Shown here: in pieces, positions 36,760 to 55,547 of the stretch
How positions within the stretch are numbered: the stretch's first letter is position 1
Layout: each line of letters opens with the position of its first letter
Source: Spirochaetaceae bacterium
GTDB taxonomy: Bacteria; Spirochaetota; Spirochaetia; Treponematales; Breznakiellaceae
DNA: 64,000 nucleotides
Direction: 5' to 3'
Assembly (NCBI GenBank): GCA_031279015.1
Contig: JAITJI010000102.1
Span: 1-64,000 of the forward strand
Notes under the pieces: model-generated
Told to the model about the DNA's origin: nothing
What the model saw: the letters and a program-made list of their open reading frames with translations, nothing else
Database searches by the model: none
Position numbers and translations under genes: made by a program

Positions 36760-37242
36760 TCAATCAGGTTCCCGGTTTTGGTCCCGGGGCTTTTCCCTCA
36801 TCAACCGGACCAGAATCCGGTCAAGGCTGTCCGCAAATGCCTTTAAGGTCCGCTTCCCATAGGTCGCGGTCCGTTCTGTCCCCAGCCCGTTTTCCGCAAG
36901 GGCCACCATAAAATCCCGCAGGGAAAGCCGCTCGCGGATGTTCTCCCGGGTATAAACCTGGCCCCGGTCATCCATTACCAGTACCGAAGCCTCCACCAGC
37001 CGGGATGCCAGGGGAATATCCCGGGTGAGCACCAGATCTCCCGGCTGCGCCAATTCCACAATGTGGTTATCTGCGGAGTCCTTTCCCGGGGGACAAAGTT
37101 TCATCACCACTCCCGTACCGGTGATTCCCGGTATTGGCCGGTTTGCCGCAAATATCGCCGGAATGCCCCGTCTGACGGCGGACCGAAGTACCAGTTCCCG
37201 GGCCGGTCCCGGGCAGGAATCGGCGTCAACGAGGATCTTCAC
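36760..37242 (-). CDS. YaiI/YqxD family (DUF188) protein
   Basis: KILVDADSCPGPARELVLRSAVRRGIPAIFAANRPI, DLVLTRDIPLASRLVEASVLVMDDRGQVYT. Confidence 0.85.
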   Translation of the reverse strand: MKILVDADSCPGPARELVLRSAVRRGIPAIFAANRPIPGITGTGVVMKLCPPGKDSADNHIVELAQPGDLVLTRDIPLASRLVEASVLVMDDRGQVYTRENIRERLSLRDFMVALAENGLGTERTATYGKRTLKAFADSLDRILVRLMREKPRDQNREPD

Positions 37243-38849
37243 GGAGAAAAACCGGTTTCCGGACCAGGGCCGGCGGCATAGAGGGTAAATTCCCCCATAA
37301 GAGACAAGTCCTCCGCCGGCGCTTCCGGGACGGCGGAACCTGCGGCAAGGAAGGCGCTTTCCCCCGGTAAAAGGGTCAGGGTTTCCACACCCTTATTGCA
37401 GGAAAGTTGAGCCTTTCCCCGGGTGACGATAAAAATATGGGGTCCCTTCCGGGAAAAGAGCATGCTTTTCCCCGTTCCCCGGATTACCGAAAGGGAAAAT
37501 TCCCGGCAATCCGCCGGATAGGTGTACAGGGATACCGCCGGCGTTTCTCCGGGAGCCGCCTCCCGGGGGGGCCTTATAATTGCCGGACAAAAAGGACGGA
37601 ATTCCAGAATCCTTGCCAGTTCCCCTGCATCTACATGTTTTTTGGTGAGCCCCCCCCGCAGCACGTTGTCGGAGTTGGCCATTAATTCTACTCCGAAACC
37701 TTTAATGTAAGCGTGGAGTATCCCCGCCGGAAGGAATATGGCTTCCCCCGGCGCCAGATCGAGGAGGTTGAGGTAGAGGGGGGCAATGACTGCGGGATCC
37801 CCCGGATACAGGGCCGCAAAGTCTGCGGCGGTTTTCCACTCCTCTGCATAGCCGGGATGCCTTTCAACCAGACGATCCCCCTCGCCCAGGGTATAGCTGC
37901 TCAGGGCCTGCCGGTCTGCCGGGGAAAGGGCGAACAGCGTCCCAAGAAAATCCCGCAGTCCCGATGCGGCATCCTCCTGTTCCAGAGCCCTGCGGAGCTG
38001 CCCAAGGCCGGCATCCAGGGAATGAGGCGCCTTTTCGGAAAAAATCTCCAGCCGCTTCAGGATCTCCGGAATATCCCGGAAACCACACATTGCCCGGAAA
38101 CGACTCAGGGCGCAGAGTATTTCAGGCTTGTGGTTGGCATCCCGGTAATTACGATTGGGGTCGCCGGGTGAAAATCCGGCCCGGTTCTCCCTGTCCCAGC
38201 CGGCCAGGGCCTGTTTCCGGTTGGGATGGGCCTGAATGGAGAGGGGCTTCTCTGCGGCCAGGAGTTTGTACAGAAAGGGGAGGGCGCCGAATTCCCGGTT
38301 TACCGCCTCTCCCAGATAAAACAAGGGGTCCCGGCGGATCAGATCCGCCAAACCGATCCGTTCAGCCCCGGCCTCCGCAACCGAGGGCGCTGCCGGATGG
38401 ACTCCCATCCACATCTCAGCCCAGGGTTCACTGCCGTCATTTTTTCTGCCCAGCAGGGCGGGTATCCATTCGGAGGATCCCCAATCGTAATTTTTTACCG
38501 TATTTTCCAGTTTATAAAGCCGGGGCAGAACCCGAACAGGGCTGTTAAACCGCTTGTCCAGAACTTCGTCGATTCGGGTAATCATATCCAGGGTAAGCCG
38601 CTCTGCTTCCCGGGTATCCGTATCCCCCTGGATGCCCTTCTCTTTTTGTAATTTCTGAATTTCATCACAGAGCAGATAACCGGTGATTATGGCGATTTTC
38701 AGAGGATCCTTTAGGCCGGTGATCTTCCGGGTATTTTCAATGCAGATTCTATACCGGTTTAAAAGACTTTCAAGACAAACAGGATCTTCATCAACGGTAA
38801 TAGTAAAAGATGTGCCTAATATATCTATACGGAGACTACTTTTTGGCAC
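37239..38849 (-). CDS. manA: ZapA domain fused to mannose-6-phosphate isomerase class I
   Basis: Residues ~1-95 are ZapA-like (LRIDILGTSFTITVDEDPVCLESLLNRY..LKIAIITGYLLCDEIQKLQKE); the rest is ManA (LYKLENTVKNYDWGS, KPLSIQAHPNRKQA, NHKPEILCAL, GILHAYIKGFGVELMANSDNVLRGGLTKKH). Confidence 0.85.
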   Translation of the reverse strand: MPKSSLRIDILGTSFTITVDEDPVCLESLLNRYRICIENTRKITGLKDPLKIAIITGYLLCDEIQKLQKEKGIQGDTDTREAERLTLDMITRIDEVLDKRFNSPVRVLPRLYKLENTVKNYDWGSSEWIPALLGRKNDGSEPWAEMWMGVHPAAPSVAEAGAERIGLADLIRRDPLFYLGEAVNREFGALPFLYKLLAAEKPLSIQAHPNRKQALAGWDRENRAGFSPGDPNRNYRDANHKPEILCALSRFRAMCGFRDIPEILKRLEIFSEKAPHSLDAGLGQLRRALEQEDAASGLRDFLGTLFALSPADRQALSSYTLGEGDRLVERHPGYAEEWKTAADFAALYPGDPAVIAPLYLNLLDLAPGEAIFLPAGILHAYIKGFGVELMANSDNVLRGGLTKKHVDAGELARILEFRPFCPAIIRPPREAAPGETPAVSLYTYPADCREFSLSVIRGTGKSMLFSRKGPHIFIVTRGKAQLSCNKGVETLTLLPGESAFLAAGSAVPEAPAEDLSLMGEFTLYAAGPGPETGFSP

Positions 38850-38893
38850 CGCGGCTCCTTAAAGGGTATGAAACAACGATTCTCAGAGCTACC

Positions 38894-39400
38894 CTAAAAT
38901 ATATCCAATTCCACGGATTCCGCAGGAACAACGGGAGGAACCGATTCCCCAGCCTCAGGCCCCGCCCTTTCACCTTCACCGCCGGCGGCAAAGAGGATCT
39001 CTTCGTCGGATTCCTCACCCTCGTCCTCCACAAAAAGCTTCCCCGGGAATGCCTCCGGCTCACTCTGGCTTATAACGGGTTCGGGCTCCTGATCCGGTTC
39101 GGCGCCGGACTCTCCGGCTTCGGCTTCGGCGGCGCTCTCCGCCGTCTTCTCCGGGAAAATACTCCGTTCCATGGCCGCTTCAAACTGACTGAGCCTGTCG
39201 AGGGCGGAGAGAATCCCGTCCTCAATACGGCCCTGATCGTTCTTAAAACTCTGGATCAAAACCTCAAGCTCATCGATTCGTTTTTGATAATCGTCCAGTT
39301 TTCCCTTAAGAAAGGTATTTTCCTCGGTTATCCGGTTAACAAAGTCAATTGTTTTTGCAACCTTTGTTTCCAGCAGCTTTACCTGCTCAAGGGTTACCAT
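38894..39400 (-). CDS. Coiled-coil protein, ZapB-like position
   Basis: MVTLEQVKLLETKVAKTIDFVNRITEENTFLKGKLDDYQKRIDELE coiled coil with acidic tail, located between rplT and zapA-manA. Confidence 0.6.
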   Translation of the reverse strand: MVTLEQVKLLETKVAKTIDFVNRITEENTFLKGKLDDYQKRIDELEVLIQSFKNDQGRIEDGILSALDRLSQFEAAMERSIFPEKTAESAAEAEAGESGAEPDQEPEPVISQSEPEAFPGKLFVEDEGEESDEEILFAAGGEGERAGPEAGESVPPVVPAESVELDIF

Positions 39401-53011: not shown

Positions 53012-54260
53012 CGACGGTTTAGTTGTCGGCCTTGATATCGGCACGACCAAGGTATGCGCCGTCATCGGCGAACGTAATGAGCATGGAACCCTCGAAATAA
53101 CCGGTGTGGGAACAAGTCCGTCTACAGGCCTGCGGAAAGGGATCGTTGTAAACATCGAAGCCACCCTCCGTTCGGTGGCGGCGGCCATAGAAGCGGCGGA
53201 AATGATGAGCGGCCAGGAAGTGCATTCTGTGTGGACCGGAATAGGCGGCAGTCACATCGATGGAATCAATTCCCGGGGGGTAGTGGCGGTTACGGGGAAG
53301 AACAAGGAAACCCGGGAGATAGATGAAGAGGACCTCCGCCGGGTGCTGGAAGCCGCCCGGGCGGTGGTCATTCCCATGGATCGTCAGGTATTGGAGGTGA
53401 TCCCCCAGTCCTATATAGTGGACGATCACAAGGGTATTCCGGATCCCCTGAACATGATTGGGGTACGCTTGGAAGCGGAGGTCCATATCATCACCTGTTC
53501 CGTTACCAGCGCCCAGAATCTGATCAAATGTGTTAACCGGGCCGGATTCAGGGTTAACGATCTTGTCCTCCACTCCCTGGCGGCAGGCCGCGCTTCGGTT
53601 ACCCCGGAGGAAAAGGCCATGGGGGTAGCCCTTATCGATCTGGGAGGGGGGACCACGGAGGTAATGGTCTATTCCCAGGGCGCTCCCTATTCAACCACCA
53701 CGATCCCCGCAGGAGGTTCCCAGGTTACCAGCGACATATCGATCCTCAAAAATATCGCCTTTGAAACGGCGGAAAAAATAAAACTGGAGGCGGGGTGCTG
53801 CTGGGGGGATCTCCTGGAGGGGGATGATGATATCATTGTTCCCGGAGTCGGCGGCCGTCCGCCCCTGCCCATACCGCGTTCCGAAATTCTCCGGATCACC
53901 AGGCCCCGAATGGAGGAGATCTTCACCATGGTGAAGGAAAAACTGGACAAGTTATCCCTCTCCCGGCCCCTGGGGGGTGGGATTGTGTTGACCGGCGGCG
54001 GGGCCCAGCTTTTGGGGGCCGTGGAGTTGGCCTCCCACATCTTTAAACTGCCCGTGCGGATAGGGAATCCCCTGGCCGTGGGAGGGCTCGTGGATGAGTA
54101 CCGCAGTCCGGCCTATGCCACCGCAGTGGGGCTGGTCCTGGAAGGAAACGACCGGGAAGGGAACCGGGGTTCCGAATGGAGTGGTGAGCATCTCCGGGAC
54201 AAGGGAAAGGGATCCATTCTTAAGCGGTTAAAATCATGGCTGCAAAATGAATTCTTTTAA
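53004..54260 (+). CDS. ftsA: Cell division protein FtsA, probable CTG start
   Basis: ANDGLVVGLDIGTTKVCAVIGE (upstream of the first ATG/GTG), DLGGGTTEVMVYSQG, IVLTGGGAQLLG. AAGGAGG precedes the CTG at 53004. Confidence 0.92.
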   Translation: MANDGLVVGLDIGTTKVCAVIGERNEHGTLEITGVGTSPSTGLRKGIVVNIEATLRSVAAAIEAAEMMSGQEVHSVWTGIGGSHIDGINSRGVVAVTGKNKETREIDEEDLRRVLEAARAVVIPMDRQVLEVIPQSYIVDDHKGIPDPLNMIGVRLEAEVHIITCSVTSAQNLIKCVNRAGFRVNDLVLHSLAAGRASVTPEEKAMGVALIDLGGGTTEVMVYSQGAPYSTTTIPAGGSQVTSDISILKNIAFETAEKIKLEAGCCWGDLLEGDDDIIVPGVGGRPPLPIPRSEILRITRPRMEEIFTMVKEKLDKLSLSRPLGGGIVLTGGGAQLLGAVELASHIFKLPVRIGNPLAVGGLVDEYRSPAYATAVGLVLEGNDREGNRGSEWSGEHLRDKGKGSILKRLKSWLQNEFF

Positions 54261-54335
54261 GTTAAAGATGGTAATTAAGGCGTTTGTTATGCCTTGAAAA
54301 AATATTAGAAGACCAAGTGATTTGGGAGGGGGAGT

Positions 54336-55547
54336 ATGAAAATTCTCGAAATTAATGACAAGGCATCTGAACCGGTACCGACTATTATCAAGGTAATCGG
54401 TGTGGGCGGCGGCGGATCCAATGCGGTCAACCGGATGATCGACTGTGGAGTAAGGGATGTGCAGTTTATCGGAGCCAATACGGACGTGCAGGCTTTAAAC
54501 CGCTGCAGGGCGCCGGTAAAACTGCCCCTGGGTTCAAAATTAACTCAGGGGTTGGGGGCTGGGGGCAAACCGGAAGTGGGCGAGCAGGCCGCCAGGGAAG
54601 ATCAGGAGATGATCGCCAATGCCCTCCGGGGGGCTCACATGGTTTTTGTCACCGCCGGCATGGGGGGGGGTACCGGAACCGGCGCCGCTCCCGTGATTGC
54701 CCAGATTGCCCGGGAGTGCGGCGCCTTGACCGTTGGAGTTGTGACCAAACCCTTTGGATTTGAGGGACGTTACAAGATGCGCCTTGCGGAAGAGGGAATC
54801 CTGAAACTGCGACAGTCCGTGGATACCCTTATCGTCATTCCCAATGAGCATCTCTTCAAGATCGTAGAGAAGAGCACCCCTATTAAAGAGGCCTTCCTCA
54901 AGGCTGACGATGTGCTTCGTCAGGGCGTGCAGGGAATTTCGGACCTTATCACCACCCACGGAGACGTGAATGTTGATTTTTCGGATGTCCAAACTACGAT
55001 GAAGGGTCAGGGAGATGCCCTGATGGGTATCGGCATTGGTACGGGAGAAAACCGCGCCCAGGAAGCCGCCTCCAGGGCGGTGGAGAATCCCTTACTGGAT
55101 GACTGCACCATTGAAGGGGCCCAGCATATCCTGGTCAATGTTTCCGGCGGGGAGAATGTCTCCCTGGTGGAATATCAGGAAGTGATGGAGTATATTAACC
55201 GGATCGTCGATCCCGATGTACATACCATCATAGGATGCGCGGTGGATCCGAGCCTGGGGGATAAACTTCAGGTGACGGTAATTGCCACGGGTTTCCTGAA
55301 TGAGATCTCGGAAATGGCGTCCCATAACTCCCGGAAGATTGAGCTGGTAAAATCCGCAAAGGGTGACTATATTAAAACTGAAGATTTTGATACTATCACC
55401 AACCGATCCGGTGTGACGGCCCCCTACCTTTCTCCACGGAATTTCCGGGAGGATGATCTGGATGTGCCCACCCTTATCCGGGGTGCAAAATATGCCGGTT
55501 CCGCAGAAAGGGATCTCAAGACCGGTTCGGAATCCAAGGACGCGTAG
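54336..55547 (+). CDS. ftsZ: Cell division protein FtsZ
   Basis: [34 protein letters not shown] tubulin signature. Confidence 0.97.

Follow-up and report, generated by a model that had tools for sequence, protein, structure and literature searches.

Is a factor of the division ring made as one protein with an enzyme of sugar metabolism at this locus, and if so, how did the two come together and what would the joined protein do? The locus lies in a 64,000-nucleotide stretch of DNA from a Spirochaetaceae bacterium (the window), in which an uninterrupted minus-strand frame of 536 codons with a GTG start occupies positions 37239..38849. The frame encodes, in this order and all on the minus strand, a ZapA domain (residues 3-97, 38559..38843), a short hinge (residues 98-109, 38523..38558) and the whole of a class I mannose-6-phosphate isomerase, ManA (residues 110-528, 37266..38522). 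This agrees with the original prediction of one frame holding both proteins in full, and the corresponding models, PF05164 for ZapA and TIGR00218 for ManA, both score above their cutoffs. Translation of the frame has a clear entry point, as a Shine-Dalgarno sequence, AAGGAG (38855..38860, minus strand), lies 5 nt upstream of the GTG with a calculated energy of -7.4 kcal/mol, and the start of the ZapA domain is the only place in the frame with a strong match of this kind. The sole in-frame ATG near the junction is codon 89 (38583..38585, minus strand), which falls within the conserved last helix of the ZapA domain and is the nearest in-frame start upstream of the junction; its Shine-Dalgarno match is weak (-2.3 kcal/mol versus -7.4 kcal/mol at the GTG). 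The hinge contains no start codon, and no ATG, GTG or TTG is present from codon 90 to codon 121 of the fusion in any of the three frames scanned. Thus, no separate start for ManA can be seen, and the claim that the junction lacks a restart holds, with ATG89 and its weak match as the closest approach to one.

The ZapA domain passes the PF05164 model marginally (aa 7-84, 25.5 bits against a cutoff of 23.8), and five fused relatives score 25.3-49.8 bits with the same model. A family-specific ZapA profile, of whose input the window sequence is itself a part, gives the window domain 130 bits. Most of the core columns of ZapA are kept in the fused copies, whose median score is 115 bits as compared to 124 bits for separate copies (p 3e-4, with rows that are not independent). 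The modelled domain has the element order E-E-H-H-H, that is, beta-beta-alpha-alpha followed by a long C-terminal helix (residues 79-102), although confidence in the model is low (pLDDT about 45-67 overall, about 48-67 in the best model and 45 when the domain is folded alone as a single sequence). Confidence also falls below 50 at residues 102-104 of the hinge. The genome, a 2.69-Mb assembly, contains no ZapA besides the fused one, and genes for FtsZ and ZapB are present.

The ManA part scores 223 bits with TIGR00218 (cutoff 116) over model positions 4-343 of 359, and it matches PMI_typeI_cat at aa 111-259 with an E value of 6e-31. When it is compared with Salmonella class I ManA (TIGR00218; 3h1m, 2wfp), the two are 33% identical, and the metal ligands (Q206, H208, E243 and H379 in the window protein) and the catalytic arginine (R398) are common to both. 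The modelled ManA part has a pLDDT mostly above 90 and a TM score of 0.90 to 3h1m; where the two proteins differ is in the N-terminal ZapA domain that the window protein adds. In the family alignment, the columns of the Gln, His, Glu and His ligands and the catalytic Arg are invariant, both in fused ManAs (24/24) and in separate ones (92/92). The fused ManA is the only one in the genome above the cutoff, the other ManA-like match being partial and scoring 25 bits. Two other ManA frames of unusual form were observed. In HGW-Spirochaetae-7 (L041:955-3600, plus strand), an open frame of 882 aa has a ManA domain at residues 478-880; its N-terminal part contains no Pfam domain and may be no more than open frame. 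The separate manA frame of genome G030 (L200 / L012) is only 337 aa long, with a gap separating the two stretches that match, and may encode a ManA that is degraded or divergent.

Placement of the gene after rplT, at the slot of zapB and zapA, had also been predicted, and this placement proved to be syntenic across the family Breznakiellaceae: the order rplT–zapB–zapA–manA–yaiI is held in nearly all family loci long enough to show it. In the window, the upstream neighbour is zapB (38894..39400, minus strand; PF06005, 36.6 bits), which is on the same strand as the fusion and syntenic in relatives. In the window ZapB, the N-terminal half is a coiled coil and the C-terminus is extended by a long acidic stretch; zapB frames of relatives differ in length. 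Downstream, yaiI/yqxD (DUF188; 36760..37242, minus strand) shares 4 nt with the end of manA. The contig also carries an ftsA-like ORF and ftsZ (53106-55547, plus strand), about 15 kb away from the fusion; the FtsZ begins MKILEIND and has no Phe2 hook of the type described for Gram-negative FtsZ (PMC12216130).

To relatives, the original prediction had proposed extending the search for the same architecture. Our family sample comprised 200 genomes, 175 of which contain ZapA, and 131 ZapA loci were examined. ZapA and ManA share one frame in 26 of these, 24 of them full and two (L133, L180) cut by contig ends. One of the fused copies is in a closed, single-contig genome of 3,855,671 bp (G029), which we take to be that of the cultured Leadbettera (Treponema) azotonutricia ZAS-9 and which carries one ZapA and one ManA. 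A further genome (G065) has two different fused copies, L107 on contig C307 and L131 on C20, reflecting either duplication or a strain mixture. At 93 loci, zapA and manA are separate neighbours, on the same strand in every case, and the distance between stop and start is mostly -23 to about +30 nt, typically -4, -8, -11 or -17. In the ten or so genomes compared from outside the family, the two genes are far apart or on different contigs, and the zapA-manA neighbourhood therefore looks like a family trait. The main text of a description of the Breznakiellaceae (PMC13067680) does not mention ManA or ZapA. Separate genes in relatives, combined with signs of a sequencing error, had been named as grounds for abandoning the fusion; the separate genes are indeed found, whereas the error is not borne out, given that the fusion recurs, including in a closed genome. 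Since the one-frame architecture recurs in this way, chance and misassembly are both excluded as its source, and the conserved ZapA-ManA fusion frame is supported as real.

The fusion appears to have arisen repeatedly. On a tree built from the ZapA and ManA domains with the linker left out (125 rows), the fused or separate state changes 8 times, and at least 6 changes are retained when only well-supported branches are kept. A single clade of all fused copies is rejected (p-AU 1.6e-6). In this tree the window copy is placed beside L182, a relative with separate genes; however, the data do not reject a clade that unites the window copy with six further fused ones (p 0.75), so the window fusion may be shared with those six relatives. 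Likewise, joint grouping of the two large fused clades is not rejected (p 0.77). Because the quick tree is under-searched and these two split groupings are not rejected, we give the count as at least about six: zapA and manA would have been joined independently at least about six times in the family, and the true number of changes could be somewhat lower than 6 if the supported branches mislead. Most of the changes are probably fusions rather than splits, as the early branches and most members of the family have separate genes.

Between close fused pairs, dN/dS is 0.06-0.17 for ZapA and 0.17-0.24 for ManA, with similar values in separate pairs, and 0.43-1.08 for the linker, the last estimated from few codons. 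By these ratios, purifying selection is maintaining both domains in the fused lineages while the linker drifts. Linkers in the fused family members span about 7-60 aa, and the long ones are rich in Pro, Ala, Gly and charged residues. Neighbouring gene pairs provide controls for how readily close genes become joined. The manA and yaiI genes overlap or abut in 54/105 loci, by 4 nt in 43 of these, and no manA–yaiI fusion is found among the 105 loci compared; zapB and zapA lie no more than 20 nt apart in 104/118 loci, and no zapB–zapA fusion is found among the 118 compared. That manA and yaiI often overlap but never fuse favours a special tolerance of, or benefit from, zapA–manA joining beyond mutational ease, as does the count of at least about six independent changes. 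The comparison covers two control pairs, and N-termini differ in how readily they tolerate an extension. At four loci within one genus (L088, L098, L164 and L169, in G079, G180, G170 and G186), manA is missing from the slot and zapA is followed directly by yaiI. In two of these genomes, G079 and G170 (92-94% complete), no ManA match is found anywhere in the genome, so division in this family does not everywhere depend on ManA.

The reading that we consider probable is that the gene encodes one bifunctional protein, in which a crosslinker of the Z ring bears an active isomerase as cargo at its C-terminus, and that the fusion came from coupled neighbouring genes. The N-terminal ZapA part would form the usual dimer and tetramer through its C-terminal helix and would crosslink FtsZ together with the ZapB of the adjoining gene. 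Such an assembly would follow the known dumbbell tetramer of ZapA, which is held together by four C-terminal helices and whose heads hold the N-terminal tail of FtsZ (PMC12216130). The ManA part would act as a metal-dependent mannose-6-phosphate isomerase on the end of the ZapA helix. The presumed starting point is a same-strand zapA and manA with overlapping or abutting stop and start, an arrangement suited to translational coupling, from which small indels or stop losses would repeatedly have produced one frame whose product keeps both functions. By default, this would yield the two activities in a 1:1 ratio and would place ManA at the division site with no dedicated signal. From the sequence we infer co-transcription, FtsZ binding, tetramerisation, isomerase activity and a full-length main product, and the most likely arrangement is an active ZapA to which an active enzyme is passively tethered.

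The original prediction had named both a link from hexose-phosphate status to FtsZ-ring assembly and simple localisation of the enzyme, and the fused frame is compatible with either. Could the enzyme instead report on metabolism? Occupancy of ManA by mannose-6-phosphate or fructose-6-phosphate might alter crosslinking of FtsZ by ZapA, in the manner of UgtP, and so couple hexose-phosphate supply to Z-ring assembly. It is exactly zapA and manA that fuse recurrently, and never the overlapping manA and yaiI, which suits this idea, as does the fact that in E. coli and Klebsiella the C-terminal tail of ZapA covers the site of the FtsZ tail and must shift for FtsZ to bind (PMC12216130), a step at which C-terminal cargo could act. 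Moreover, loss of manA in B. subtilis desynchronises elongation, division and segregation (PMC2940726; PMC8270655), but that effect has been traced to wall sugars and not to FtsZ. Tight allostery is disfavoured by a linker that varies from about 7 to 60 aa under relaxed selection, and metabolic signalling is not required, since most relatives keep zapA and manA separate and several lack manA entirely. We therefore regard a sensor as unlikely, and we give slightly less credence still to its strongest form, in which flux through mannose-6-phosphate and fructose-6-phosphate tunes FtsZ crosslinking and selection, not mutational ease, has repeatedly wired the isomerase into the Z ring.

The frame might also give two products, the full-length fusion and a shorter ManA made by internal initiation, as in translationally coupled ancestors. 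Initiation at ATG89, or cleavage at the hinge, is possible, and one fused relative (L097) has a potential ATG start with a good SD-like match right at the start of ManA. Against this stand the weak match at ATG89, the lack of a start at the ManA boundary in the window, and six fused copies (L082, L085, L112, L119, L131 and L133) with no in-frame ATG, GTG or TTG in the junction region scanned, and we judge two products improbable. Far more improbable is a sequencing or assembly artefact that merged two genes. The assembly consists of 138 contigs and is about 90% complete, and in separate relatives the genes overlap in other frames, where one indel would suffice to join them; however, as there is no alternative ATG, GTG or TTG for ManA near the window boundary in any frame, manA would have no start at that point even after a single indel, and the 24 full-length family loci show the same architecture. 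For the family as a whole, recurrence rules out an artefact. A single bifunctional protein with its isomerase passively tethered thus remains our preferred reading.

The bearers of this recurrent fusion are termite spirochaetes. Independent, repeated joining of one gene pair would amount to a natural replicate experiment on the physical coupling of metabolism to the Z ring; the link between sugar metabolism and division is directly testable, and a fused cultured relative would allow the work to be done in an isolate. The literature searched, including that on ZapA in Treponema, yielded no description of a fusion between ZapA and a metabolic enzyme, so the combination is apparently undescribed, its novelty being the joining of two known families, ZapA and class I ManA. 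As an FtsZ-ring crosslinker of the PF05164 type, the window ZapA resembles others in its profile match, its conserved core columns, its slot beside zapB and the presence of FtsZ in the genome, and it differs in that the enzyme continues the same chain, whereas separate ZapA frames of the family are about 100-130 aa long and end after the C-terminal helix. In B. subtilis, ManA contributes to cell-wall integrity, and the same enzyme activity is thereby tied to a division and segregation phenotype, but it acts through the carbohydrate composition of the wall and not through fusion to a division protein. UgtP of B. subtilis is a sugar-metabolism enzyme that acts on FtsZ as an inhibitor, and the likeness is that of a metabolic enzyme physically connected to the Z ring. 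The two differ in that UgtP inhibits FtsZ as a protein of its own, unattached to any division protein, whereas the enzyme at this locus is, as read from the sequence, covalently joined to an FtsZ crosslinker.
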